A stretch of DNA of 16,449 bases from assembly GCA_016932955.1 (NCBI GenBank), contig JAFGBV010000047.1, positions 1 to 16,449 on the forward strand, in the 5' to 3' direction. The notes under the pieces are model-generated. The model did no database searches. It saw nothing but the letters and a program-made list of their open reading frames with translations, and was not told the DNA's origin. Source of the stretch: Anaerolineales bacterium. GTDB lineage: Bacteria; Chloroflexota; Anaerolineae; Anaerolineales; UBA4823. Positions 1,581 through 16,449 of the stretch are shown piece after piece (position 1 is the stretch's first letter; every line of letters starts with the position of its first letter). The position numbers and the translations under genes were made by a program.

Positions 1581-4291
1581 CCACCGCCCATCCCTCGTAC
1601 CAACTGCGCGAGGCATGTCGCACCAGCGCTGCCCGTTGGGCTGCCTGGCTGGTGCACACCCAGGACGGCTGGGAGGTTAACACCCAGCATGCCCTCAGTC
1701 AAACGCGCCAGAAAGCCCTGCGCCGCTTCACCCACGAACCGCGCAATGCCGCCTGGCTGGCTGGCGCCCTCAGCAGCAGCCGTATGCGCTGGCACTCCAC
1801 CGGCAGCCAGTCTCAGCAACTCGGCGTCGGGCGGATTTACGCCTTCCCCAATGCACACAGCATGGAACTATTGCTCGTCGGCGCCGAAGCACTCGAAAAA
1901 CCCGCCGAAGGCCTCTTCCGCATCCTCGCCAGCATGGGTGCGCAACCCCAGAACACCCTTCAAACCGCCCCTGCCGCACCTCCCATCCCACGGTCAAGCC
2001 TGTCTCCAGATTCCATCCCACCTTCTTCTCCCGCACCTGCTCCCCCGTGGTCCTTCTCCAGCGGACTCGAAGCCTCCTACGATCCTCAGGGCGCCCTGCA
2101 GAATGTCCTCGAATTTTTATCCACCCAGGTGCCTTGCCACTGCACTTACCTTGCCGTTCGCTCCGGCGAAGTTTTTCGCGTCCAGGCTGCCTGGCACTGC
2201 CCGGCTACCATCCTCGGATATGACATCCCCGTCCAGGAGGATGCTCCCCTCCAGGAGCTGCTTGCCAACCGCCGGGGCGTCTTACGCGACGACCTGCAGA
2301 CCGAGCCGCGCTTTGCCCTGCGCCTGCTGCTCAGCCCGGCCAACCATGCCTGGATGGGCCTCCCCATCCAGGTTGGTCAGCGCCTGATCGGCTTCGTCGC
2401 CTTTGGAGCAGCGCAAAAAGGCGCTTTCGATGCGCTTCAGCTCCAGCAGACTGCGCAACAGGTTGAGCATCTTGCCTATAATATTGAGAGCGCCCTCATC
2501 TTCAGCGAAGTCGCCCGTTACCTGCAGCAGTTAGCTCTGCTCAACGAGCTGGCTTCCACCGCCTCCCTCGGCGTCGACAAAGATGAATTCGCCCGCCGGG
2601 TGATGCTGCGACTGCGCCGTACCTTCAAAACCGATTGGGCGGCGGTTCTGCTCCTCTCCGCCGATGGTACAACGCTCTTAGAATTTGGCGGCGGTTTCCG
2701 CGCCGGTCCGGGCTGGGCCATCCCCGTCCGAACCAGCCTCATGGGCTTGGCTGTTCAAACCGGTCTTCCGCTGCGCGTTGGCGATGTGCGCACAGACCCA
2801 CGCCACTTCATCCTTCATCCCGATATTCGCTCCGAGCTTGCCGCCCCGCTCAAGTACCGCGGCCGCGTTATCGGCGCACTCGTCCTGGTATCCAACGAGA
2901 CCAATGCCTTCTCCCAACAGGATGAGCAGCTCCTGGTCGTCATCGCCAGCCATATGGCAGGGTTGTTTGAGAACGCTCGCCTCAACGAAGAGACTCGTGA
3001 GCGCGCAATTAAACTTGCCGACTCCGTGCGCCAGCTTCAGGCCGTGCGCGATACCTCCCTCGACCTTGCCGGCGACCTGGACCTCGATACCCTGCTCACC
3101 CGCGTCGTCCAGCGCGCCCGCAGCCTTGTGGGCGCGCGCGGCGCCGAATTGGGTCTCTACAATGAAGAACAGCAAGTCGTGGATATCCTGGTTTCCGATA
3201 CCCCCTGGGAGAATTTCATCGGTCTCCAGATCCCCCTCATGGCAGGCGTCGCCGGCCGCCTGGCGGCTTTTGGCGAGCCAATTGTGGTCACCGATTACAA
3301 CGCCTGGTCTGGCAGGCTTCTCCCCCATCGCCACGCCGCGTTCAAAGCTGTTGCTGGCGTACCGCTCAAGTTCAAAGGCCAGGTGATCGGCACCCTCACT
3401 GTCCTGGATGATCGCCCCGAGAAACAGTTCCAAAGCGAAGATGTCCAACTCCTCGAGCTGCTCGCCCCCCAGGCAGCCATCTCCATCCGCAATGCCCGCC
3501 TCTACCAGGAGTTGCAGGAGCGCATCAAAGCCCAGCACCTTGCCGAATCGCGCTTGCTCCGCTCAGCCCGTTTGGCTGCCGTGGGCGAGATGGCTGCCGG
3601 CGTAGCCCACGAGCTGAACAACCCCCTCACCACCGTCACTGGCTTCGTCGAGCTCGCCATCGAAGACCTACCCCCCGATTCCCCCCAGCGCGCCGACCTG
3701 GAGCTGGTGCTCGAAGAATCATACCGTGCTCGTGGCGTAGTCCGCCGCCTGCTCGATTTCTCCCGCCCTGTAGAAGATCAGCGAGTGCGCGCCGATGTCA
3801 ATGAGCTGGTTGGGCAGGTCATCCCCCTCGTCCAGCACCTCGCCCGCACCGGCGGCGTTGCAATTCAGACTGAGCTGGCATCTGACCTGCCCTGGATCTC
3901 CCTCGATCCCAACCAGATCAAGCAAGTGCTCCTGAACCTGATCCACAACGGCTTGCAAGCCATGCACACGGGCGGGCTGCTCACCATACGCACCTTACTG
4001 GCCCCCCCCTCCGCCTCTGAAGCCGGGGATGAAGACCTCCTGGTAGCCATATCGATCCGCGATACCGGCGAGGGCATCCCGCCCGAAAATCTCGAGCGCC
4101 TCTTCGAGCCATTCTTCACCACCCGCCCCGCCGGCAGAGGCACCGGCCTTGGCCTTTCCGTCAGCTACGGCATCGTCTCCAGCCACGGCGGGCATATCGA
4201 AGTCGAATCCCAGGTCAGCAAGGGAAGCAATTTCACCATCTACCTGCCACAAACTGGCGCATCCGTTAATGGGGAAAACAATGGAGACTGA
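1574..4291 (+). CDS. Soluble multi-GAF sensor histidine kinase
   Basis: The 905-residue product should autophosphorylate a histidine and pass the phosphate to a response regulator, most likely one encoded by the next two genes. There is no signal peptide or membrane helix, so it senses a cytoplasmic cue. Residues 1-125 look like a degenerate GAF-type domain and are followed by a Pro/Ser linker (130-160). Three GAF-like domains cover roughly 165-310, 320-470 and 485-645, each ending in the typical helix (for example [19 protein letters not shown]). The HisKA H-box is [15 protein letters not shown] with H679. The ATPase domain shows the N-box (N788, N792), the G1 box DTGEGI at 830-835, the F-box LFEPFFTT and the G2 box GTGLGLSV. 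The ligand is unknown. The ATG at 1574 is the first possible start and lies just after a promoter. The last 11 bases overlap the next gene, which indicates translational coupling. Confidence 0.93.
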
Positions 4292-6125
4292 CCCAGCCGC
4301 AGCAGTTGAGAAACCATTGCCTGTCAACCATTCCGCCCAGCCTTCCCATGCCCAGGATACAACCGCCGGGAGTATCTTCGTCGTTGATGATGAACCCGGA
4401 ATCCTGCGCCTCTGCCACCGCCTGCTGGAGCGGGCAGGCTTCCAAACACTGGTTTTCAACGATCCCCGCAAAGTACTCGTCGCACTGGAGGAGTTGCCAA
4501 CTGAGATCAGCACGCCCCTCGACCTGCTGCTAGTTGATATTCGCATGCCCGAATTGGACGGTTTTCAGGTCATTGAGACTGCCCGCCACCGATTCCCTGA
4601 TCTCGCCGTTGTCGTGATGACCGGCTTTGGCACCGTCGATACCGCCATCGAAGCCCTGCGCAAAGGCGCTGATGGTCTCATCCTGAAACCCTTCAGTGGC
4701 GGCGAGCTGGTGCAAAGTGTTCGCCGCGCCCTTCAGCAGTCCCGCAGCAAGCAAGATGTCGCCCGTTTGCAAGCGCTCAGACCGTTATTTGATATCACCG
4801 AATCACTCTTCGCCGAGACAAACCCCAAACGCCTGCAAACCCTCATCCTGCAAGCTGTGCTGGCGCGTTTGCCCTGTTCGCAGGCCGAATTCTACCAAAC
4901 TGAGAGTATCGAAACAACCCCTCTCGCCCAGGCTGCCCCTCCACCAGCAAAAAAACGCCTTGCTGGCGCTGCTCCTGCTACCCGCTTGCGTCTCGCCGCT
5001 GCCGCAAGCGCCTTCGGTGCAGACGCCACGCCCACCCGGGGAAAGCCAAAAGGCAGCGATACAGGCATGCTCACCGAGCCAATCGCCCGTCAGGCCGACA
5101 CATTGCGCGCCCCCTTGCTCATCCAGCGCGAAAAACAAGGCAGCCTGCAATTACAAGAGATCCTCATCAGCCGCCAATTAGGCTCGGTTATGTGCGCTCC
5201 GGTGGTGCTCAAATCGGGCGCCGCGTTGCGCGGTGTGCTGCTGGCTGCCCGCCGGGTTGACGAGCCGCGCTTTCGTGAATCAGACCTGGAGATGTTCACC
5301 ATTCTCGCCCGTCAGGCTGCCGTTGCTATGGATAACGCCCGCCTGCAGGCTGAATTGCGCCAAAACATCCGCCAGCTGGAAGACTCTCAACGCGCCCTCA
5401 TTCAAGCCGAGAAAATGGCCATCGCCGGGCGCCTTACCGCCTCCATCGCCCATGAGATCAACAACCCCCTGCAATCCGTCCAAAATTGCCTCCACCTTGC
5501 CGGGCGCCAGGAACTTCCTCCCGACCAGCGGGAATCCTATCTGTCCACCGCACAAAGCGAGTTGGAACGGCTTATGTTCACCGTCCAGCGCATGCTTGAT
5601 TATTATCGGCCCACTGCGCTGGATCGAAAACCCCTGGATATCTCCAATTTATTAGATAAAGTGCTCACCCTGGCAAGCAAGCAATTGGCTGATCTCGGCG
5701 TGGATGTACACCTCCACCTCCAGCCCAAGCTGCCCCCGATACTCGCTGTCAGCGATCAGATCCAGCAGGTTTTTCTCAACCTGATCTTGAATGCCATGCA
5801 AGCCATGTCAGATGGCGGCACACTCCACATCACCGCCAGCCTGGATTCCACCAACCCAGATGGTGTCGAAATCTTCTTTGAAGATACCGGTCCCGGCGTT
5901 CCTGCCAGCCAGCGCAAGCATATCTTCGAGCCTTTCGTCAGCACCAAAGAACAGGGCGCAGGCCTTGGCCTTGCCGTCAGTTATGGCATCATCACCGCCC
6001 ACGGAGGCAGCCTGGATCTGGTGGAAAGGCGCCAGCCCGGATCGCCTCACGGCGCATGTTTCCGCATCAACCTACCCATGGCGGGCAATGCCGATCCCGC
6101 ACACACTCCCCACACAGCCAGATGA
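4281..6125 (+). CDS. Histidine kinase with N-terminal receiver domain
   Basis: The 614-residue soluble protein has a receiver at about 30-150 with every key residue: acidic pair D36/D37, phosphoacceptor D86 (in LLLVDIRMPELDGF), T114 and K136 (LILKP). A degenerate GAF domain follows (about 165-355), interrupted by an Ala/Pro-rich low-complexity stretch at about 212-262. HisKA has H391 in SIAHEINNPL. The ATPase domain has N500/N504, D535 in DTGPGV, and GAGLGLAV. Order and context suggest the upstream kinase phosphorylates this receiver and so tunes a second kinase that acts on the following regulator; that is inference. The frame is open further upstream, but I chose the ATG at 4281 because GGGG lies seven bases ahead and the protein then overlaps the preceding gene by only 11 bases. 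The ATG at 4269 (four residues longer) is also possible. It ends in an ATGA overlap with the next gene. Confidence 0.92.
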   Translation: METDPAAAVEKPLPVNHSAQPSHAQDTTAGSIFVVDDEPGILRLCHRLLERAGFQTLVFNDPRKVLVALEELPTEISTPLDLLLVDIRMPELDGFQVIETARHRFPDLAVVVMTGFGTVDTAIEALRKGADGLILKPFSGGELVQSVRRALQQSRSKQDVARLQALRPLFDITESLFAETNPKRLQTLILQAVLARLPCSQAEFYQTESIETTPLAQAAPPPAKKRLAGAAPATRLRLAAAASAFGADATPTRGKPKGSDTGMLTEPIARQADTLRAPLLIQREKQGSLQLQEILISRQLGSVMCAPVVLKSGAALRGVLLAARRVDEPRFRESDLEMFTILARQAAVAMDNARLQAELRQNIRQLEDSQRALIQAEKMAIAGRLTASIAHEINNPLQSVQNCLHLAGRQELPPDQRESYLSTAQSELERLMFTVQRMLDYYRPTALDRKPLDISNLLDKVLTLASKQLADLGVDVHLHLQPKLPPILAVSDQIQQVFLNLILNAMQAMSDGGTLHITASLDSTNPDGVEIFFEDTGPGVPASQRKHIFEPFVSTKEQGAGLGLAVSYGIITAHGGSLDLVERRQPGSPHGACFRINLPMAGNADPAHTPHTAR

Positions 6126-6976
6126 GTGCTTTGCCATCTTCCCCTCCCGCTCCGCCACCCCGTCTCCTCGTCGTTGACGATGAAGAGGCCATGCGCCGGT
6201 CGCTCGCAGAAATCCTGCGCCTCGAAGGCTACCAGGTATTCACTGCCTCTGATGGCGATACTGCCATCACCCTCATTGGGCAGGAGAATTTTGACCTTGT
6301 GCTTCTTGATCTCAAAATGCCTCGTACAGATGGCCTGGAAGTGCTGCGCCACACCGCCCGCGTTGCCCCCGATACTCAGGTGATCCTGCTCACCGCCCAT
6401 GGCTCTCTGGAATCGGCTATCGAGGCCTTGCGCCAGGGCGCTTACGACTATCTGCTCAAACCAGCCTCCCCTGCCCAGATCCTTGCCAGTGTTGCCCGTG
6501 GTTTGCAGCAGCGCGCCGAAGCGAACCAGAAACGTGCCCTCATCCAGCAAATCGAAACCTCTATCCGCCATCTCAAAGGCATTCAAGAAATGCCCGTCAA
6601 TCCCCCAGCGGAGGAATTGCTGCATCTATCCCCTGAGATCAGCTATGATCCTCAGCGCAGAGAGCTGCATTGGCCAAACGGTGTCATCCAACTCACCCCA
6701 ACAGAAGGCCGCTTGATGAAAATCCTTTTTGAAAATCCCGGGCGCGTCTTCACCCATCGCGAATTAGTCTTTCTCGTACAAGGTTACGAAACCAGAGATT
6801 GGGAAGCGCCAGAAATCCTGCGCCCCCTCATCAGCCGCCTGCGCCATAAGCTGACCTCCATCCCAGGCGCAGACCGCTGGATCGTCAGCGTTCGCAGCAC
6901 GGGGTATGTATTGGAACCCCCTAGCGAGCCACCAGACAATAAGGCTGCTTCATCAGGCACAAATCCCCCCTCGTAG
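6122..6976 (+). CDS. OmpR/PhoB-type response regulator
   Basis: The 284-residue product has a receiver at about 13-130 with D19/D20, phosphoacceptor D63 (LVLLDLKMP), T91 and K113 (LLKPA). A helical linker (about 130-170) leads to a C-terminal winged helix (about 178-266). There, the segments TPTEGRLMKILFENPG, THRELV, ISRLRHKL and VSVRSTGYVL match the OmpR fold in order. It is the expected DNA-binding output of the operon; its targets are unknown. The start ATG overlaps the stop of the preceding kinase gene in ATGA. That start was preferred over an upstream frame extension because the earlier residues carry no domain, while the receiver begins within 13 residues of this one. The last 18 residues are a loose Pro/Ser-rich tail. 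It converges with the transporter gene after a gap of 33 bases. Confidence 0.93.
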   Translation: MSALPSSPPAPPPRLLVVDDEEAMRRSLAEILRLEGYQVFTASDGDTAITLIGQENFDLVLLDLKMPRTDGLEVLRHTARVAPDTQVILLTAHGSLESAIEALRQGAYDYLLKPASPAQILASVARGLQQRAEANQKRALIQQIETSIRHLKGIQEMPVNPPAEELLHLSPEISYDPQRRELHWPNGVIQLTPTEGRLMKILFENPGRVFTHRELVFLVQGYETRDWEAPEILRPLISRLRHKLTSIPGADRWIVSVRSTGYVLEPPSEPPDNKAASSGTNPPS

Positions 6977-7009
6977 CGGCAGCCACTTTTCTGAAAGCCC
7001 TGCCCCCAA

Positions 7010-7951
7010 TTACCCTCCTGGAGGCCAGATCATATCTTTCGGGATTCCAGGAGGCCTCAGCCAGTTCAGCAGGCTGCTACGCACCAGTTTGCGCGGGGCG
7101 GGCTTCTCCCGCGCGATCAGTGCCAGGCTAAACATCAACAGCAGCGCACCCACCCACTGCGCATTGCTCAGGCGCTCGCCCAGCCATAAATGCGAGACCA
7201 CTACCGTCACCAACAGCTCTCCCAGCCCCAAAAGTGCCGTTTGCATGCCGCCCAGATGTTTCACACCCAGAAATAGCGTCAAACGTGAGAGGAAGGTCAC
7301 CAAAGTCAATCCAAGGATGCTTCCCCATGCCGTGCTAATCGACGGTACAACCGAGTCACCGAAAAGAAAATATGCCGGCACCACAACCAGGCTCATCGAG
7401 AGCAGCGTATAGAACGTCACCGTCTCCGCGGGCATATCGAACAGCACGCGTTGGTTGATTGGCAGGTGCAGCGCGTAGAGCGCAGCTGCGGCCATCATCA
7501 TCAGCATCCCCCACATATCCACCTGCTGGTGAGGCGAAAACCTGAGCAGCAACAGAGCAGGCAAGATCAAGACCAAACGAAACAATGTCAACCTGCTGGG
7601 AGGCTGACCATCAATCCACAGCCACACTACCACAAACAAAGGGTACAGCGAATACAGCAGTTGCCCCAGGCTGGCATCGATACGCCCCAATGCGGCATAG
7701 TAGAATAACGAGCCAAGCCCATTGACCAACCCAGCCAGCATACAGCCCAAAAGCCCCGCAGGGTAAATGAAAAGATACTGTCGCTTGAAGATCAGAAGCA
7801 CTACCAGCAACAAGAGTGCCGCCAACATCGTGCGCAAAGCTACCACGCCCTGCCAGGGCATGCCCAGGCTGATCGCATGCTTGCCAAATACTGGCGCCAT
7901 GCCTAAGAACACGGCTGAAGCCAGCGCTGCGTACAATCCTTTATTTCGCAT
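7010..7951 (-). CDS. EamA/DMT-superfamily transporter, possible amino-acid exporter
   Basis: The 313-residue inner-membrane protein has ten hydrophobic helices (about 5-25, 34-55, 64-84, 90-112, 120-137, 146-163, 177-197, 208-230, 236-257, 263-280). They form two five-helix EamA halves. The second half ends with the family-like segment LGLGELLVTVVVSHLWLGERLS near 241-262. A cytoplasmic tail of about 33 residues follows. The superfamily includes exporters of threonine/homoserine, cysteine pathway metabolites and other small molecules, but substrate cannot be assigned from sequence. Its ATG overlaps the last 11 bases of the threonine-synthase-receiver gene. It lacks a good Shine-Dalgarno of its own, so translation is probably coupled. 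That coupling makes a substrate linked to the enzyme's product the most attractive guess; sugar, nucleotide or drug export remain possible. Confidence 0.88.
   Translation of the reverse strand: MRNKGLYAALASAVFLGMAPVFGKHAISLGMPWQGVVALRTMLAALLLLVVLLIFKRQYLFIYPAGLLGCMLAGLVNGLGSLFYYAALGRIDASLGQLLYSLYPLFVVVWLWIDGQPPSRLTLFRLVLILPALLLLRFSPHQQVDMWGMLMMMAAAALYALHLPINQRVLFDMPAETVTFYTLLSMSLVVVPAYFLFGDSVVPSISTAWGSILGLTLVTFLSRLTLFLGVKHLGGMQTALLGLGELLVTVVVSHLWLGERLSNAQWVGALLLMFSLALIAREKPAPRKLVRSSLLNWLRPPGIPKDMIWPPGG
7014..7054. repeat. Inverted repeat at the convergent gene ends
   Basis: CCTCCTGGA (7014-7022) pairs with TCCAGGAGG (7046-7054), a nine-base stem around a 23-base loop. It covers the last codons of the transporter gene just past the end of the plus-strand operon. 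It might slow plus-strand read-through, but no T tract follows on either strand, so I do not call it a terminator. The 33 bases between the two stop codons contain no other element that I can see. Confidence 0.3.
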
Positions 7952-9644
7952 TTTTATTGATGTTGACCAGGGTCATTACCTCATCCAGGAATTCGTCATT
8001 CATAAACTCTCCCTTTTGCATCAGGGAGTGAATACGCCCCTGGAGGCGTGCTTTTTCATCATTTGTCAGTTCTTTTGCCGTAACCACAATTACCGGGATG
8101 GATGCAGTCTGCACGTCAGCCTTTAGGGCATCGAGCACCGAAAAGCCATCCACCTCTGGCATCATCAAATCCAGGATGATCAGATCGGGATGCTCGCCTC
8201 GCGCAAGCTCGATCGCCTCACGCCCATTGGTCGCCTCGAACAGTGTATAATCCCCCTGGGCTTGCAGGATGCGCCGGATCAGGCGGCGCGCATCCGGGGT
8301 ATCATCCACAATCGCCACCCGTGAATAACGTTCCGAGGTCACCCGGCTTAGCGCCGCAAACAAGCCTTCCTCGGGCTTCTCACGCAGCACCTCCGTTGAC
8401 ACCTCTACATCCCGCGACCAGCCCTCCCCCAAGATCATCTCCTCAATGGGCATGGTATGCCCAGAGCAGTTCACCACCACCACATCGGTCGGCTTGATCT
8501 GCCCTGCTCGCACCATCTTGATCACCCCAGCAAATGCCACTGCCGCCGCCGGCTCCACTGAGATTCCCTCCATCTTCGCCAGGATGTGAATCGTGCGGAA
8601 AGCTTCTTCATCCGTCACACTGTCAAAGGTGCCACCACCTCCCTGCAGCATCCGCTGGCGCAGCAAGGTATAGGTACGCCCAGGATCGCCCGTAGAGAGC
8701 GTGGCAATATTCGTTCGCGGAGAACGGATCGGATCCGCCACCTCCAGCCCCTGCCGCCAGGCATGCGCCATTGGCGCGCATCCATCCGTTTGGATATTAG
8801 CCATCGCTGGCAGGTCGTCGATTAAATCCATCTGGCGCATTTCATCAAACCCTTTTTGCACCCCCTGCGGCCCCAAGCCTCCACTGACCGCCTGTACATA
8901 CCAATCCGGTGCACGCCACGGCCCACCTTTTCGCCCCTTGTGAGAGATGTTTCCTCCCAAGATTGTCGCCAATTGCTCGGCAATCTCGTAAGCAATCGTC
9001 TTCATCGCCTCCACGGATGCAATCGTCCGCGACCCCTTCTCCAGGTACAATCCCCTCTGGCGGGCAAATTCCGCCGCAACCTGTTTCGTCTGATCGTAGG
9101 ATGCTGTAACCTTAACAACCTGTGAGCCGTATATCGCCACCTCACGCATCTTTTCTGCGGGCACCAGACTGGTCAAAAATGTCCATAGCTTGATTCCCGC
9201 TCGTGCCGCGTACGCTGAATAAGCGATTGCCACATTGCCCGTCGAGGCTAACACTGCCTCCGTAATGCCAGCTTCCTTCAGCGTCGCCACTCCCAAAGCC
9301 GCCTGGCGATCCTTAAAGGATCCCGTAGGCCCTTGTCGCTCATCCTTGATGTAGATGTGCGGGCATCCCAGCATCATTCCCAGGTTAGCAGCATGGATCA
9401 AGGGGGTTCCCCCCTCCCCCATGGTGATCAGCGGGTTGGGTCCATGTACAGGCAGCACCTCCATATAGCGCCACATCGAAAATGGGCGATCCTTCACCAG
9501 CTCGGGCAGCCTGCCCCGCAATCCCTTATAATCATAGCGTGCTTCTCGCCAGCCACTGCCGCACTTTGCACACTCATTGGATGAAGGCACGAAGGGCGCC
9601 CGATAACCACAATCCAGGCATTCAACACTGACATGGGATGACAT
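7941..9644 (-). CDS. Threonine-synthase-like PLP enzyme fused to a C-terminal receiver domain
   Basis: The 567-residue product begins with a zinc ribbon (C9, C12, C25, C28). A fold-type II PLP enzyme domain (about 70-405) follows: GEGGTPL at 76-82, GPTGSFKD with PLP lysine K111, ASTGNVAIAYSAYAARAG at 133-150, a glycine loop SGGLGPQG at 254-261, EPAAAVAFAG at 364-373, and VNCSGHTMP. Threonine synthase makes L-threonine from O-phosphohomoserine. The glycine loop and the insert near 231-249 are unlike textbook members, so a related reaction is possible. After a linker (about 406-440), residues 441-565 form a complete receiver: D447/D448, phosphoacceptor D492 (LIILDLMMPEVDG), T522, K544. A standalone enzyme of this type would end near residue 405-430, so the receiver is an extra domain. 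The ATG at 9644 is set by AAGGAGGT 10 bases upstream. The gene follows the giant kinase after 34 bases and overlaps the transporter gene. Confidence 0.88.
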   Translation of the reverse strand: MSSHVSVECLDCGYRAPFVPSSNECAKCGSGWREARYDYKGLRGRLPELVKDRPFSMWRYMEVLPVHGPNPLITMGEGGTPLIHAANLGMMLGCPHIYIKDERQGPTGSFKDRQAALGVATLKEAGITEAVLASTGNVAIAYSAYAARAGIKLWTFLTSLVPAEKMREVAIYGSQVVKVTASYDQTKQVAAEFARQRGLYLEKGSRTIASVEAMKTIAYEIAEQLATILGGNISHKGRKGGPWRAPDWYVQAVSGGLGPQGVQKGFDEMRQMDLIDDLPAMANIQTDGCAPMAHAWRQGLEVADPIRSPRTNIATLSTGDPGRTYTLLRQRMLQGGGGTFDSVTDEEAFRTIHILAKMEGISVEPAAAVAFAGVIKMVRAGQIKPTDVVVVNCSGHTMPIEEMILGEGWSRDVEVSTEVLREKPEEGLFAALSRVTSERYSRVAIVDDTPDARRLIRRILQAQGDYTLFEATNGREAIELARGEHPDLIILDLMMPEVDGFSVLDALKADVQTASIPVIVVTAKELTNDEKARLQGRIHSLMQKGEFMNDEFLDEVMTLVNINKNAK

Positions 9645-9654
9645 ATCGCCAACT

Positions 9655-9662
9655 ACCTCCTT
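9655..9662 (-). promoter_or_regulatory. Strong Shine-Dalgarno for the PLP enzyme-receiver gene
   Basis: AAGGAGGT on the minus strand is a near-perfect anti-16S match, ten bases before the ATG at 9644. It fixes the start of the fusion gene ahead of the zinc ribbon. It lies within the 34-base spacer after the kinase gene, so this cistron can be translated efficiently without coupling to the kinase. Confidence 0.8.
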
Positions 9663-9678
9663 GAAGATTGCTCGAACC

Positions 9679-12600
9679 TCACCCCTGCTTCAAACGCCTC
9701 AATGCATGCTCGATACTCGAGAGCAACTCTTCTTCGCCCACCGTACCCTTATGAAGCAAATTCTGAGAGAACTCTGCCAGCTTTTCCCGCTGGATATCCG
9801 TCAAATCCCCAGCCGTAAAGATAATCACAGGAATCTCGCGCAGACGTGCATCTACCTGCAGCACTTCCAGCAATGCAAATCCATCAATCTCCGGCATAAA
9901 CAGGTCGAGGATGATCGCGTGAGGTGGGTCCGATTGAATTGCCGCCAGACCCTCCGGACCGCCATGTGCCAGGCGCACCTTGTAATTGGTGCTCTGCCGC
10001 AAGATCTTTTCTACCAGGCGCAGGTCGTCCTCATCGTCATCCACCACCAACACCGTCTGAATACTACCATCCCCATTGAGCCGGGTGAGCGCTTTCACCA
10101 GATCATCTTCCAAGATAGGCTTGGTCAGATAACTCACTGCCCCCAGGCTTATCCCCTTTTCGCGCTCCTCCACAATGCTGCAGATGACCACCGGAATTGC
10201 GCGCGTCTCCGGATCTTTTTTCAACGCCTCCAGCACCTGCCAGCCATCAATCTTGGGCATCATCACATCCAGTGTGATCGCGAATGGTTGAACAGTTCGT
10301 GCTGTTTCAACCGCTTTTGCTGGATCAGTCAACACGACCACATCATATCCATGATCATGCAGGTAACGCTCATATAGATTTAACACCTGTCGATCATCAT
10401 CAATCGCCAGCACCACCCGCCCACCCTCGGGTCTCTCAACGCTTGTAAGAACCTCACTCACTTGTGGTAGCTTCTCCCCTTCAAGCGGCAGGGTGAAATA
10501 GAACCGGCTCCCTTTACCAATCTCACTCTCAACCCCAATCCGCCCGCCATGCAGTTCCACCAACAGGCGCGAGATCGAAAGCCCCAAGCCAGATCCACCC
10601 ACCTTGCGCGTTGGCGAGGAATCCACTTGAGAAAAAGCCTTGAAGAGCTTATCCTGATCCTCTAAGGCAATACCTGGGCCGGTGTCAATCACACTCACCA
10701 TCATTTCCCGCCCCCACTCAACGCTCGTGATCACCTCCGCCTGTATCGTGATAGAGCCCTCGTCCGTAAACTTGGCCGCGTTAGCCATGAAATTGATTAA
10801 AATCTGCCGCATGCGCGTCGGATCCGCCCGCACGGTTGGCAGGTCTGCTGGCACATCCTTAATCAACTTGATCTGCTTATCTTTGGTCAAGCCCACCGCC
10901 GTCGACATTGCACTGGTAATCAGATCGCCCAGGTTGACATCATCGTCGAAGGCCAGCTCCATCTTACCAGCCTCGATTTTCGAAATATCCAGCACATCAT
11001 TGATCAGCTCGAGCAGGTGCTGACCAGCGCTGTTGATCGCCGTCAGGTCTTGCTTCTGCAGATCGCTGATCGGCCCATCAATTCCTTTGAGGATCACTCG
11101 CGAAAAGCCAATGATGCTATTGAGCGGGGTGCGTAATTCGTGCGACATATTTGCCAGGAATTGCGATTTCAGCTTATCCAACTCGCGTAGCTGCTCGGCT
11201 GTGGCACGTTGCTCCTCATACAGGCGGGCATTTTCCAAGGCCGTGGCTGCCGAGTTCGCCAGCGTCATCGCCAGGTTAATTTGGTCGGGATTGAAACGGT
11301 TGGCTTGCACACTCTCTTTCTCATCTACCGGAACTTCCATTTCGATAATCCCAATTGCCCCACCTTTAATAGCCAGTGGCAATACCACCAAAGTGTGCAA
11401 TCCGTGCTCCTGCATGTATTCCTGTTCAGCACGATCAGCTTTTGCATCGCCTGCAAGTACCACCAATGGCTCTTGCGTTTGGATTACTTTGGCTGTCACC
11501 GGATATTCCGCAACGTTCAACACCAGGCCTATATCCTCAGAGGTGATAAACTGTCCTTCTTCTGGCTGCTCTGCTAATTCTCCTTCAGCACCGATGATAG
11601 GGGCGCGCTCAGTACGTATCAGGTCAGCTACTACGCGCAATTCTCCGGTTTCCAAATCATGGAGCGAGACGGATACCTCCGGAACATTGAAGGTGGCGAT
11701 AAAGTGTCGTACCACGATATTAGCGATCTGAGATAGTTCCATGGGCGCGTTGGCCAGTGAACGGCTTAGATCGAAAATCGTGCTCAGCTCCTGAACACGT
11801 TGTCTGGTTTCCGCAACAGCTTGCTGCGCCAATGCATAAGACCGGGCATTATCCACTGCCACAGCGATCTGATCGGTCAATGTTTGCAATATCGCCACAT
11901 CATCCGCTGTGAATGCGTCTACCTGAGTAGATTGCACATCCAGCGCGCCGGTGGTCAGGTTGCCAATCTTCATTGGGATTGCCAACTCTGCCATCGTATC
12001 TGGCAGCAATGGATTGGGACGGTGGCTTGGGTTGATACGCACATCGTTGAGCACCAGCGGTTCACCGCTTCCTGTCACCACGCCAATGACCGATTGCGAG
12101 CCAACAACCAGGCTGTGGCTGCGGCGTTTGAGCTCCGCCCCAGCCTCGCCGGTGGAGGCTGCTACTACTGCATTCTTGCGCTGCTCATCCAGCAAAAAGA
12201 TCGAGGCATGATAAAAGCCATAGCGATCGCGAATCAAATTGACCGCCCGGTCAAGGAGAACATCCAGCGCCAGCGTACCAGAGGTATCACGGGCAATCTC
12301 AGCCGCAGTCTCCAACTGGGTCGCACGCCTTCGCGACTCATCCAGCAAGCGCAAGTTTTGGATCGACACGGCCGACTGATTGGCCAAGGCCATCAAGATA
12401 CGCCGGTCCTGCTCCTCAAACCGTGTATGCTCATCGTACAGCCCGACAATGATCCCCATCCACTGACCACCCACCGTAAGCGGGGCGATTGACAGGGATT
12501 TTGCCCCCATCTGCTCCACAAATAGAGTGCGCGCCACACCTTCCAGCCGAGGATCAACCAATGTATTCTCCACAAGCAACACCTGATCGGGTCGCAACAA

Positions 12601-15600
12601 CTCGCGCATCGCCACCCAATTTTCCATCGGGTAACGCGTTCCTGGGGGGGTTGACATTGGCTGAGCTGACCAGGATGCAATTTGAATAAACCCTTCTGGT
12701 GCCACCTCGCCCACCCACGGTCGTTCAAACAAGCTGACAGTGACCGCACTCGCATTCTTATGTCCCAGAATGGTGCTCTGGCGTAGAACATCCAGGATGC
12801 TCTGATAATCTTGTGCCGCATTCAACACCGCGCTGGCCTGATATAGTGTTCCTGTCTCAGCCAGAGCGCGCTGCGTCTGCTCATATAGGTTGGCATTTTG
12901 GATCGAGGTAGAAATCTGCCCCACCAGTGTTTCTGCCACAGAAATTTCTTGAGCGGTGAAAACACGGTTCTTTTCGATCACGTCCAAACCAATCGTTCCA
13001 ATCACTTCGCCGCCTGCGATGATCGGGAAAATGGCAATCGATTGAATTCCACGCTGTACCATCAAGATATGCATCGGCGCCAGTAACGGGCTGGATTGTG
13101 CGTCAGGAATCACCGCCGGGCGCCGTGTCTGGATCACCTGCTCTGTAGAAGGATTTCCCTGCACTGGGATCCTCGATCCCACCGCAGACGCGTCTCCACC
13201 GCTGGATTTTTCTGCCACCACCGTCAGCGACTTCTTGTCCTCATTCAACAATGAGATGGAGGCATGCGCCAGGTGGAAAGCATCAATCAGTTCACCAGCC
13301 ACTGCGTCCAACACTTCGCGCAGATCTGGCGAAGAGACCATCGCCGAAACCACCCGGTTCACCAAGCCCAGTTCTTCACTGCGTTGCTGCGCTTCCCGAG
13401 CGCGCTGTTCTGCAATCGAGACACTGCGCAGGTTCTGGATGGCTACCGCAGCCTGCCCTGCCAGCGCCATCAACCTGCGAATCTCGTTCTCAGGAAAATC
13501 GACTTTCTGCGGGTAATTGGCATTCAGAAAACCAACCCACTGCGCGCCAACTACAAGCGGTACGAAAATGGTGCTGATTGCCAGAAAACCCTTGGTGTAC
13601 AGCTCGCGCATCACCTCATCCAGGCGAGGATCGTTGGGTAGATCCTCGATGATCAGTGGGCTATCTGCGCGCAGCAATTGCATTATCGAAGGATATGCCT
13701 GCAACGGATAGCGAGGCATGAAGGCTTCGCTTGGGTTTTCCACCCAGCGCGCCAATACCTCTGCCCACTCCGGTCTCTCTTGCGCTGTCCAGGGTCGGTC
13801 AAAGTAATTCACACTCACGTGGTGTGCCCCATCGCCAGCAATGGTATGACGCCGCATTGCATCCAGGATTTCATCAAAACTCTGTGCCGTATTTAGCTCT
13901 GCGCTCGCCTGGTACAGTCCAGCCGTCTCGCCCAGCGCTACTTGCGTTTGTTGGAACAGGTTCGCATTCTGGATCGCAACAGCAGTCTGCGCCGCCACCG
14001 AACGGATTAATTCTGCAGCCTCTTGAGAATATGCATCCACCTTGGTGCTATCCAGTGTGATCAAGCCCACTGTCTCTCGCCCGGCGATAAGTGGCGCTGC
14101 CAGCCAACTGTGAATATGCTCCATCCCCATTACCGCCTCCCAACGAGGGTCGGTATGTGTATCCGCAATCACCACCGGCTCGCCGCCCCTTACTACCTCC
14201 CCTATCAGCGCATCGTTTGACACAGGGCGCAAGAACATCGCAGTTCCTGATGGTTCCATCTCGTATCCGCGTGCACCAATCAATTGGCGCTCGTCACCTT
14301 GGATCAATTGGATCGAAGCCCGGTCGAACTCCACCAGCCGGGCAAGTTGCTCCAGCATGCGATCGGTCACCTGACCCAAATCCAGTGTCGAGCCAACCAC
14401 CCGCGCAATCTCCCGTAGCGTATCAGCCACCTGGCGGCGACGTTGCTCCGTCTGGAACAAACGCGCGTTCTCGATCGCAATACCCGCCGAGCTGGCAACC
14501 GCTGTAAGCAGATTCTGATCGCCTTCATCATACAGATTCGGAGTCCCATAACTCTGTACCGCAATCACCCCAACAACCTGCTCACCTGCAACCATCGGCA
14601 CCCCCAGCCAAGATTCCGCCGCTCGCCCGATATGCTCAATCCCCAGTTGCTGCGTGATCCAATCCGCCACACTCTCTCGCACCAACACCGGCTTGCGCGC
14701 GCGGATGATATATTCCGTCAATCCATTGCCGAATTTTCGGGGTGCCCACTTCACCAGCTTTCCATCATCAATCGAATATGGGAAAGAAATCTCCTCATTT
14801 TCCACATCATATAGGGCAATGTAGAAATTCGTGCAATCGATCAAACGTGAGGCATAGCGATACAATGTTTCGGGGAGCTCTTCTGGGCTGAGCTGCTCGG
14901 AAATCTCACGGCCCATTTCATTCAGCACTGCCAGCTCATCTGCACGGAGCTGCGTCTCCACAAACAAGCGCGCATTCTGCAAAGCGCTCGCTGCCTGGCT
15001 GGCCACCGCCGTCAGCAGGCTTGCATGTTCCTCCGTATACAGGTAGGGTGTTTCCACACTCTGCAGCGAAATCACACCCAAAGTCTGGTCGCCGTAACGG
15101 ATCGGCACTCCCAGCCATGATACTGCTGGGCGGTCGTTGCCCAGGGGAATAAATTCAATCCCCAACTCTTCTCGTTGTTTCACCCCCTCATCACCATTCA
15201 GTAGCAGCATTTTCCCGGTGCGGATAATATAATCAGATAGGCCTGCGCCTAATTTCCGCGGCGGGCGTTCGACCCGCTCGCCTCCAGAGAGCACCAATGG
15301 TGTACTGACTGTATCAGAGTCCGCATCATACAAAGCCACAAAGAACGTTTCTTTTTCCAATGGCACAAGCTGGCTGACGCTCGTCAGCAACGCTTCTGCA
15401 ATCCCTTGCACATCCAGCAACCCCCCCAAAGTTCGCCCCAGCTCATTCAAGACCGCCAGGTTCTCACTGCGCCGCTGAGCATCGGTGAACAGGCGAGCAT
15501 TCTGGATCGCGTTGGCTGCCTGGCTGGCTACCGAGGTCAGCAAGCCGCGATGTTCCGCCGTGTAAAGGTATGGTGTGGTCGTGCTTTGTACCGAGATTAT

Positions 15601-16449
15601 GCCCAAGATCTTCCCACCATACAAGATCGGCACCCCCAACCACGAAACCGCCGGGCGATCATTTGCCAGCGCAACAAACTGGATACCCAAGCGCTCCATC
15701 TGCTGGGGAGTATCTAAGCCATTCAGCAGCAAGCCTTCCCCGGTGCGGATCACATAATCCGTCATCCCGTGCCCTAGCTTGCGGCTCGCGAAAACCACTA
15801 GCTGCCCATCCGACTGGACGATAGGGAAGCTAATTTCGTCCTTCTCCGCATCATAGAGCGCTACAAAGAAAGTGTGAATCGGCACCAGGCGGCTGGTATA
15901 TGTGAGCAGCGCTTCAGCAATGGTATTCACATCCAGTAGCGATGTCAACGCCTGGCCCATCTCATTCAATACAGCCAGGTTCTCGCCACGCTGCTGCGCC
16001 TGGCGGTAGAGTTGCGCATTTTCCGCTGCAATACCGATCTGCTGCCCGGCAACTTGCATCAGCGATAGATTCGCTGATTGCTCGCTGAGCGTGGTGGTGC
16101 CAAATGCACACAATGTCCCCAGCACACGCCCTTTGGAGGCCAGCGGCACCCCCAGATATGAGTGGAATCCTAACCGAAGAAGACTGGCAACATCCACTCC
16201 CTCTGGAGCATGATCCAGGTCTTCAACGCTGATCGGCTTTTGTATTTGATATACATACTCGCACAGCGTGCCTTCCATACCGTCGGTTTGTAACTTACGG
16301 ATCATTTGGTCAGGCAAGTTACGGTAAACCGTAAGCTCCAACCGTCCGGTAGCGTCGTTGAACATGCTGATCAAACCAGCATCGATATTCACTGCCTGCA
16401 TGATTGCGGCTAGCAGATCACTCAGCGTTTCCTGCAAATCCAGCGAGCG
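9679..16449 (-). CDS. Giant soluble multi-GAF hybrid histidine kinase, 5' end outside window
   Basis: At least 2256 residues are encoded; the frame stays open through the right edge. Numbering below starts at the TTG codon at 16437, which is not a likely start because coding continues upstream as RSLD. About ten GAF domains follow one another (roughly 1-145, 155-315, 325-490, 505-660, 675-828, 840-1002, 1020-1182, 1195-1362, 1372-1535, 1550-1738). Each is linked by a helix of the IQNARLF type. Then come HisKA (H1766 in FLANMSHELRTPLN), the ATPase domain (N1882/N1886, D1918 in DTGPGI, GGSGLGLS) and two receivers. Receiver 1 has D2013-D2015, D2057, S2087 and K2106. Receiver 2 has D2133-D2135, D2178, T2208 and K2230. 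No membrane helix is visible, and I saw no phytochrome-type chromophore cysteine. GAF ligands are unknown. It is first of the three minus-strand genes seen and probably signals to the enzyme's receiver; that pairing is inferred. Confidence 0.93.
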   Translation of the reverse strand, partial: RSLDLQETLSDLLAAIMQAVNIDAGLISMFNDATGRLELTVYRNLPDQMIRKLQTDGMEGTLCEYVYQIQKPISVEDLDHAPEGVDVASLLRLGFHSYLGVPLASKGRVLGTLCAFGTTTLSEQSANLSLMQVAGQQIGIAAENAQLYRQAQQRGENLAVLNEMGQALTSLLDVNTIAEALLTYTSRLVPIHTFFVALYDAEKDEISFPIVQSDGQLVVFASRKLGHGMTDYVIRTGEGLLLNGLDTPQQMERLGIQFVALANDRPAVSWLGVPILYGGKILGIISVQSTTTPYLYTAEHRGLLTSVASQAANAIQNARLFTDAQRRSENLAVLNELGRTLGGLLDVQGIAEALLTSVSQLVPLEKETFFVALYDADSDTVSTPLVLSGGERVERPPRKLGAGLSDYIIRTGKMLLLNGDEGVKQREELGIEFIPLGNDRPAVSWLGVPIRYGDQTLGVISLQSVETPYLYTEEHASLLTAVASQAASALQNARLFVETQLRADELAVLNEMGREISEQLSPEELPETLYRYASRLIDCTNFYIALYDVENEEISFPYSIDDGKLVKWAPRKFGNGLTEYIIRARKPVLVRESVADWITQQLGIEHIGRAAESWLGVPMVAGEQVVGVIAVQSYGTPNLYDEGDQNLLTAVASSAGIAIENARLFQTEQRRRQVADTLREIARVVGSTLDLGQVTDRMLEQLARLVEFDRASIQLIQGDERQLIGARGYEMEPSGTAMFLRPVSNDALIGEVVRGGEPVVIADTHTDPRWEAVMGMEHIHSWLAAPLIAGRETVGLITLDSTKVDAYSQEAAELIRSVAAQTAVAIQNANLFQQTQVALGETAGLYQASAELNTAQSFDEILDAMRRHTIAGDGAHHVSVNYFDRPWTAQERPEWAEVLARWVENPSEAFMPRYPLQAYPSIMQLLRADSPLIIEDLPNDPRLDEVMRELYTKGFLAISTIFVPLVVGAQWVGFLNANYPQKVDFPENEIRRLMALAGQAAVAIQNLRSVSIAEQRAREAQQRSEELGLVNRVVSAMVSSPDLREVLDAVAGELIDAFHLAHASISLLNEDKKSLTVVAEKSSGGDASAVGSRIPVQGNPSTEQVIQTRRPAVIPDAQSSPLLAPMHILMVQRGIQSIAIFPIIAGGEVIGTIGLDVIEKNRVFTAQEISVAETLVGQISTSIQNANLYEQTQRALAETGTLYQASAVLNAAQDYQSILDVLRQSTILGHKNASAVTVSLFERPWVGEVAPEGFIQIASWSAQPMSTPPGTRYPMENWVAMRELLRPDQVLLVENTLVDPRLEGVARTLFVEQMGAKSLSIAPLTVGGQWMGIIVGLYDEHTRFEEQDRRILMALANQSAVSIQNLRLLDESRRRATQLETAAEIARDTSGTLALDVLLDRAVNLIRDRYGFYHASIFLLDEQRKNAVVAASTGEAGAELKRRSHSLVVGSQSVIGVVTGSGEPLVLNDVRINPSHRPNPLLPDTMAELAIPMKIGNLTTGALDVQSTQVDAFTADDVAILQTLTDQIAVAVDNARSYALAQQAVAETRQRVQELSTIFDLSRSLANAPMELSQIANIVVRHFIATFNVPEVSVSLHDLETGELRVVADLIRTERAPIIGAEGELAEQPEEGQFITSEDIGLVLNVAEYPVTAKVIQTQEPLVVLAGDAKADRAEQEYMQEHGLHTLVVLPLAIKGGAIGIIEMEVPVDEKESVQANRFNPDQINLAMTLANSAATALENARLYEEQRATAEQLRELDKLKSQFLANMSHELRTPLNSIIGFSRVILKGIDGPISDLQKQDLTAINSAGQHLLELINDVLDISKIEAGKMELAFDDDVNLGDLITSAMSTAVGLTKDKQIKLIKDVPADLPTVRADPTRMRQILINFMANAAKFTDEGSITIQAEVITSVEWGREMMVSVIDTGPGIALEDQDKLFKAFSQVDSSPTRKVGGSGLGLSISRLLVELHGGRIGVESEIGKGSRFYFTLPLEGEKLPQVSEVLTSVERPEGGRVVLAIDDDRQVLNLYERYLHDHGYDVVVLTDPAKAVETARTVQPFAITLDVMMPKIDGWQVLEALKKDPETRAIPVVICSIVEEREKGISLGAVSYLTKPILEDDLVKALTRLNGDGSIQTVLVVDDDEDDLRLVEKILRQSTNYKVRLAHGGPEGLAAIQSDPPHAIILDLFMPEIDGFALLEVLQVDARLREIPVIIFTAGDLTDIQREKLAEFSQNLLHKGTVGEEELLSSIEHALRRLKQG
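12352..12855 (-). repeat. GAF domain 8, second copy of the GAF 6 subtype
   Basis: This domain and GAF 6 (13432-13920) share features not found in the other GAFs: an opening (A)LxET-LYQASA-LN-AQ-(Y/F)-ILD helix, V(S/T)V-(Y/L)F-RPW, DPRL(D/E)-V-R-L, PL-VG-QW-G, and a closing MALA-Q-AV-IQNLR. They are separated by an unrelated GAF 7. The alternation suggests duplication of a two-domain module or insertion between copies. Confidence 0.65.
14458..15975 (-). repeat. Three tandem paralogous GAF repeats inside the giant kinase
   Basis: Residues 155-315, 325-490 and 505-660 are copies of one another. Shared segments recur in the same order: NLAVLNE(M/L)G or ELAVLNEMG, F(F/Y)(V/I)ALYD, PRK(L/F)G or SRKLG, Y(V/I)IR, SWLGVP, (T/S)xVAS, and NARLF. 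Copies one and two are closest, both with NDRPAVSWLGVP and PYLYT-EH. The pattern indicates stepwise intragenic duplication, with copy three older. The DNA is visibly similar but no longer identical. Confidence 0.75.

Follow-up and report, generated by a model that had tools for sequence, protein, structure and literature searches.

The stretch of DNA analysed here, called the window below, comprises 16,449 nucleotides of contig JAFGBV010000047.1 from an Anaerolineales bacterium of the Chloroflexota (assembly GCA_016932955.1). On its minus strand lies a gene (7941–9644) that joins, in a single open frame of 567 amino acids, an enzyme domain dependent on pyridoxal 5′-phosphate (PLP) to a receiver domain. 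We refer to this gene and its product as the fusion. It is flanked on the same strand by the gene of a hybrid histidine kinase upstream and the gene of an EamA-family transporter downstream. The plus strand across 7941–9644 is full of stops. The ribosome-binding site AAGGAGGT is located at 9655–9662 on the minus strand, with 11 bases from GGAGG to the ATG at 9644. A scan for promoters and terminators returned two promoter-like sites, compared with a mean of 1.5 in shuffled sequence, and none on the minus strand.

The fusion begins with a zinc-ribbon-like CxxC…CxxC segment (C9, C12, C25 and C28; 9561–9620, minus strand, as for all parts of the gene), which may bind metal. The catalytic domain follows at residues 73–394 (8463–9428) and matches the Pfam family PALP (PF00291) with 203.2 bits, compared with a cut-off of 35. 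It contains the Schiff-base Lys111 within SFKDRQ (9312–9314), ASTGN at residues 133–137 and EPAAA at 364–368; SGH is at 394–396. The receiver occupies residues 442–561 (7962–8321) and matches Response_reg (PF00072) at residues 443–544 with 74.6 bits (cut-off 30.2). It has the acidic pair D447/D448, the phosphoacceptor Asp492 (8169–8171), T522 and K544. Between the two domains, residues 410–427 (8364–8417) form a linker that differs in length among homologues and has a predicted local distance difference test score (pLDDT) below 50. For the whole predicted structure the pLDDT is 76.2 and the predicted template modelling score 0.72. An earlier note, made from the letters of the sequence alone, had described one uninterrupted frame joining a PLP enzyme to a complete receiver behind a ribosome-binding site. 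The frame, both domains at scores above their Pfam cut-offs, the ribosome-binding site and every motif at the residue quoted are present. The zinc ribbon of that description stands in part: the CxxC…CxxC pattern is there, but a Pfam scan of the window protein and three homologues gave no zinc-ribbon family above its cut-off, which leaves the four cysteines as the basis of the name.

The fused architecture is not peculiar to this contig. We searched approximately 5.8 billion protein sequences with the window protein as query and obtained 7701 matches. Among the best 120 of these, the window's own included, both domains are present in every case at 69–100% identity, and K111, D447, D448, D492, T522 and K544 are identical throughout. 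A second search used the distant member L135 (697 amino acids, a PALP domain and two receivers) as query, and again both domains were found in all 120 matches listed, L135 included. The earlier note had proposed looking for fusions of PLP enzymes to receivers; the PALP–receiver architecture recurs in 240 of 240 homologues listed, where a custom receiver model detects a receiver in every row of both searches, queries included.

A scan of species genomes gave at least 583 relatives, of which the best 80 were kept (the 80 loci below). The fusion is one frame in 80 out of 80. When these are considered together with 21 divergent members, K111, D448 and D492 are retained in all 101 proteins, residue 522 is T or S in all 101, and K544 is present in 100, with a gap in the other one. 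The four N-terminal cysteines are invariant (80/80 and 21/21), as are the glycines of the SGG-G-P motif and of the ASTGN region. D447 is replaced by Glu in 5 of the 80 loci and in 6 of the 21 divergent members. The recurrence of fused members in the searches and in 80/80 loci rules out a sequencing or assembly artefact, a local frameshift or chance as the origin of the fusion. According to the earlier note, homologues without the receiver in all close relatives, together with a sequencing frameshift at this locus, would refute its claim; the lists and genomes examined contain no receiver-less member.

Two copies of the fusion gene are spread over several frames, one in genome G142 (L174; contig C91, 5543–7200) and one in genome G285 (L178; contig C42, about 6158–7665). 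Kinase, receiver and EamA-type sequence surrounds both. Four short matches, in G114, G059, G031 and G302, end at contig ends. No plain receiver-less gene was found among the short or broken copies inspected.

By record title or look-up, all of the 80 loci kept belong to Chloroflexota. Their hosts include the cultured Anaerolinea thermolimosa, Longilinea arvoryzae, Bellilinea caldifistulae and Thermanaerothrix daxensis, and one locus (L002) is from Candidatus Aquidulcis, which NCBI places in Candidatus Limnocylindria. We also sampled 249 genomes from the class of Anaerolinea thermolimosa, calling presence by a gap in the scores. Full or nearly full places (at least 617 bits) number 101 in 79 genomes, 22 of which have two or more, and another three genomes contain nothing but pieces. 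The pieces score 339–498 bits; below them come matches of about 240 bits in which the model is covered over its PALP part alone. At the family level, 26 of 61 genomes have a member at an E-value of 1e-120 or better and 35 are without one. The fusion is thus common but far from universal in the sampled class and family.

The gene immediately upstream encodes a multi-GAF hybrid histidine kinase (9679–16449, minus strand), which is cut by the end of the window after 2256 visible amino acids. Pfam places its HisKA domain at 10966–11169 and its two receivers at 10087–10413 (REC1) and approximately 9700–10065 (REC2), all on the minus strand. The gap to the fusion is 34 bases. At all 80 loci a receiver-bearing frame that matches the window kinase is found within 500 bases upstream of the fusion, and in 77 it includes the kinase core, at 59–81% identity; the remaining three frames are short, and contig ends truncate two of these. 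The gap has a median of 17 bases and a maximum of 369, and in 68 of the 80 it does not exceed 50. The kinase His, the N-box Asn and the G1 Asp are invariant wherever a row has letters (76 to 77 of 81 rows). Among the divergent members, 13 of 20 have a kinase core directly upstream. A chance gene order is not credible when the arrangement recurs this often.

The receivers themselves also speak for a tie between kinase and enzyme. In the type seen in the window there are two receivers on the kinase and one on the enzyme. We built a receiver tree of 65 rows and 119 columns, with 24 outside receivers drawn from those in 115 further frames of the neighbourhoods. Enzyme receivers, both first and second, group with the terminal receiver of the kinase in one clade of 29 rows (support 99/94), and the next group consists mostly of free-standing receivers. 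The grouping of enzyme and kinase receivers is also recovered in a tree of 41 rows that leaves out the 24 further receivers (97/92). In addition to gene order, the grouping speaks for one pathway shared by kinase and enzyme. The tree gives no direction of descent among the receivers. Four divergent members (L153, L156, L157 and L169) have enzymes with two receivers, the second also from this clade. No receiver match was obtained in the kinases adjoining L156, L157 and L169, and L153 is without an adjacent kinase core. Based on these patterns, receivers seem to have moved between kinase and enzyme while the circuit stayed.

In another reading, the receiver is a phosphate sink, or a docking or dimerisation module that places the enzyme by its kinase; in either case there would be no switch of activity. 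A sink would suit the number of receivers in a system, where the kinase has two, the enzyme has one and a free-standing one is sometimes added, as beside several divergent members. The variable linker, modelled at low confidence, also speaks for this reading. The phosphoacceptor Asp together with the T/S and K switch residues is kept in essentially all members examined, which would be needless for pure docking, and we regard a sink or docking role as decidedly unlikely.

The earlier note described the PLP part as an enzyme of the threonine-synthase type. On that reading the fusion would be the cell's threonine synthase with an added receiver, through which the kinase gates threonine synthesis. 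There are reasons for such a reading. Among solved proteins, threonine synthases come closest in both sequence and fold (the best Foldseek matches of the predicted structure are 6cgq, 2d1f and 2zsj), the PLP lysine and the ASTGN loop are common to both, and many jgi entries for fused homologues carry the name threonine synthase. The family models argue otherwise. Among the best 25 of 125 NCBIfam families listed are six threonine-synthase models, and the window protein falls below the cut-offs of all six: the best, NF006050 (PRK08197-type threonine synthase), gives 231.7 bits over residues 5–396 compared with a cut-off of 303, and TIGR00260 (thrC) gives 143.8 compared with 167.1; the others are NF004170, NF006205, NF004996 and NF005035. 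In 10 out of 10 host genomes tested, the fused protein is below the cut-offs of both TIGR00260 and NF006050. A separate gene is above the thrC cut-off in all 10 and above that of NF006050 in eight, and eight genomes have a thrC-type gene with the motifs NSxNPYR and GNAGN, both of which the fused proteins lack. For these ten hosts, the separate genes rule out the fusion as the cell's only threonine synthase.

The residues expected to contact the substrate are altered as well. We take N154, S155, R160 and N188 of the Thermus enzyme to hold the phosphate of O-phosphohomoserine; no support for these roles was found in the literature searched on threonine synthase. N188 aligns to Gly255, which is invariant in the 80 loci and the 21 divergent members, R160 to residue 210, which is mostly Ser, Ala, Cys or Thr, and N154 to the variable residue 203. 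S155 aligns to residue 205, a Ser in the window protein and an Ala in 60 of the 80 loci. In the window protein, the equivalents of N154, R160 and N188 all differ from the Thermus residues.

In a tree of 63 PALP domains, 32 fused proteins form one clade (100/100), and the thrC, PRK08197 and KDRA groups from these genomes fall outside it. The fused set consisted of 10 of 79 clustered fused proteins, the window protein, 20 divergent members and L135; duplicates within the fused group (L111–L120 and L129) were left out, as were those PALP proteins that have GTGGT or in which no lysine motif was recognised. The position of thrC beside the fused clade carries a long-branch warning, and we use only the unity of the clade. 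Given the missed models, the separate thrC-type genes, the altered phosphate-contact positions and the clade of its own, the threonine synthase identity is not supported, and it is highly improbable that the fusion is the cell's threonine synthase with a receiver attached. To the extent that its sequence can tell, the fusion is a PLP fold-type II enzyme of the threonine-synthase superfamily and type of chemistry, acting on a different substrate. Its product is probably not threonine, and the threonine synthase label on many fused proteins is likely a mislabel. The gene would then encode a response regulator whose PLP fold-type II output is a relative of threonine synthase yet separate from it.

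Downstream of the fusion, and overlapping it by 11 bases, is the EamA-family transporter gene (7010–7951, minus strand; Pfam PF00892). An EamA homologue on the same strand starts between −56 and +261 bases from the stop of the fusion in 76 of the 80 loci. Of the misses, L027, L070 and L072 end about 100 bases or less past the fusion stop, and L069 is without EamA. Two further genes in the window, at most candidate parts of the system, converge on this cluster from the plus strand (4149–6976): by Pfam, a receiver–histidine kinase (4149–6125) and an OmpR-type regulator (6056–6976). This family is found at 51 of the 80 loci, nearly always on the opposite strand, and in the receiver tree its receivers group with those of window positions 4149–6976.

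Farther upstream, beyond the kinase, we counted gene families at the 67 loci that have at least two upstream genes, naming them on the Anaerolinea thermolimosa genes. A ParA-type ATPase family is present at 57 out of 67, and a family whose members include GAF sensor proteins is present at 58; one of the 67, L033, is misplaced in this count, and its fusion frame is intact with the kinase and EamA genes in order. The sensor proteins of Anaerolinea thermolimosa include one with dCache, HAMP and GAF domains and another in which GAF is accompanied by a MASE11-like region that scores below the cut-off. At L032 a ParA/MinD-type ATPase gene (5059–5841) lies between GAF sensor genes and the hybrid kinase.

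Other genes were noted near the fusions. In one subfamily (L158, L159, L161 and L162) a PRK08197-type threonine-synthase gene is in the same cluster as the PALP–receiver fusion; the copy at L161, the only one scored, reaches 577.5 bits (cut-off 303). Free-standing receivers occur in the clusters of L158, L159 and L161. L172 includes a ribonucleotide reductase frame of 1484 amino acids (2333–6787) with matches to intein splicing and LAGLIDADG domains. In the window, a minus-strand frame of 292 amino acids at 411–1289 has a Thr/Pro-rich middle and matched no Pfam family.

The wealth of sensor parts in the Anaerolinea thermolimosa cluster, and the convergent kinase/regulator group as a common neighbour, raise the alternative that the PLP domain is itself a sensor. 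It would bind or turn over an amino acid and report through its receiver to the kinase, whose own target would lie elsewhere, with the convergent OmpR-type regulator as one candidate; the adjoining EamA gene fits a link to amino acids in either direction. In the receiver tree, however, the receiver of the convergent regulator is not close to those of the enzyme, and the unchanged catalytic lysine and the glycines of SGG-G-P and the ASTGN region exceed the needs of a pure sensor. We consider a sensor role unlikely.

The best explanation, and one we hold to be rather probable, is a two-component system with the PLP enzyme as its direct output, perhaps coupled to transport. The GAF domains of the co-directional hybrid kinase would serve to sense a signal, and so, probably, would the GAF/Cache proteins whose genes precede that of the kinase in many relatives. 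The kinase would autophosphorylate and pass phosphate to Asp492, either directly or through its own receivers, and phosphorylated Asp492 would alter how active the PLP enzyme is or how it oligomerises. A small amino acid or a derivative may be the compound on which the enzyme acts, and the adjoining EamA protein is probably the membrane transporter of its product or substrate. Because the fusion carries a receiver and usually sits between the genes of a sensor kinase and a transporter, amino-acid chemistry is probably under the direct control of a signal. That two-component signalling gates the enzyme after translation is plausible because an intact receiver is joined to the PLP enzyme and the kinase is just upstream in nearly all loci.

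Several observations weigh against this two-component explanation. Adjacency of the kinase does not prove phosphotransfer, and the second receiver of the kinase is absent from 12 of 81 aligned rows and so is not constant. No adjacent kinase core is found in 6 of the 20 divergent members. Three of these (L153, L154 and L171, near-identical at 712 amino acids each) have a receiver gene after the fusion, two (L163 and L172) have directly upstream a gene of the IF-2B family (L163:10032–11108 and L172:7102–8139), which we take to be a family of sugar-phosphate isomerases such as MtnA, and L170 has a Na/H exchanger gene upstream. In a seventh divergent member, L168, the upstream frame is without any Pfam match. 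The receiver tree has few columns and a narrow outside sample, and some of its 24 outside receivers adjoin divergent fusions (the kinase receiver of L165 and receivers of L156, L159 and L169). The structure model is only moderate and uninformative on contact between the domains. The window EamA protein scores 55.8 against the NCBIfam transporter model, far below the cut-off of 230.2. By the score gap, 167 of the 249 genomes of the class sample have no member.

A fuller version of the circuit can be drawn, and we offer it tentatively, as possible rather than probable. It would be a membrane-to-metabolite pathway free of transcription, in which GAF/Cache receptors and the ParA ATPase act on the hybrid kinase, the kinase on the PLP enzyme, and EamA exports an amino-acid-type product, perhaps an extracellular signal or an envelope precursor. 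Receivers would have relocated between kinase and enzyme with the circuit kept. If the kinase does control the enzyme, many Chloroflexota, most of them uncultured, have a two-component system that reaches small-molecule metabolism in a single step. The conserved order of kinase, enzyme and transporter genes provides a ready test set that includes cultured hosts. 

Compared with thrC-type threonine synthase (TIGR00260; PDB 2zsj, 2d1f, 6cgq and 1uim), the fusion shares PLP fold type II, the SFKDR lysine and the ASTGN loop, but it is below the family cut-off, is without NSxNPxR and GNAGN, and has a receiver. The PRK08197 type (NF006050) has S/TFKARG and GNAGG where the fusion has SFKDRQ and GGLGP, and the two are in separate clades. 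Cysteate synthase (TIGR03844) is a relative of threonine synthase with another substrate; the fusion scores 88 bits against that model, short of its cut-off of 324.9. The jgi name of one homologue, "threonine synthase/CheY-like chemotaxis protein", joins both parts, so automatic annotation had already seen the fusion. We found no description of a PALP–receiver fusion among the titles and abstract openings listed from open-licence literature on receiver outputs, such fusions and threonine or cysteate synthase, and an earlier mention in reviews of receiver outputs is possible. The principle that the earlier note had presented as unusual, a receiver on a metabolic enzyme, is already known: passages of PMC5847659 describe receivers attached to standard metabolic enzymes in bacteria and archaea, with KaiC-REC and BcsA-like-REC as examples and a narrow distribution of the archaeal fusions. 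The fusion resembles the metabolic-enzyme response regulators described there in its receiver joined to an enzyme and may also resemble them in a narrow phyletic range. Section 14 of that source names no PALP enzyme, and to the arrangement it describes the loci of the fusion add, in most cases, the genes of a kinase and a transporter.

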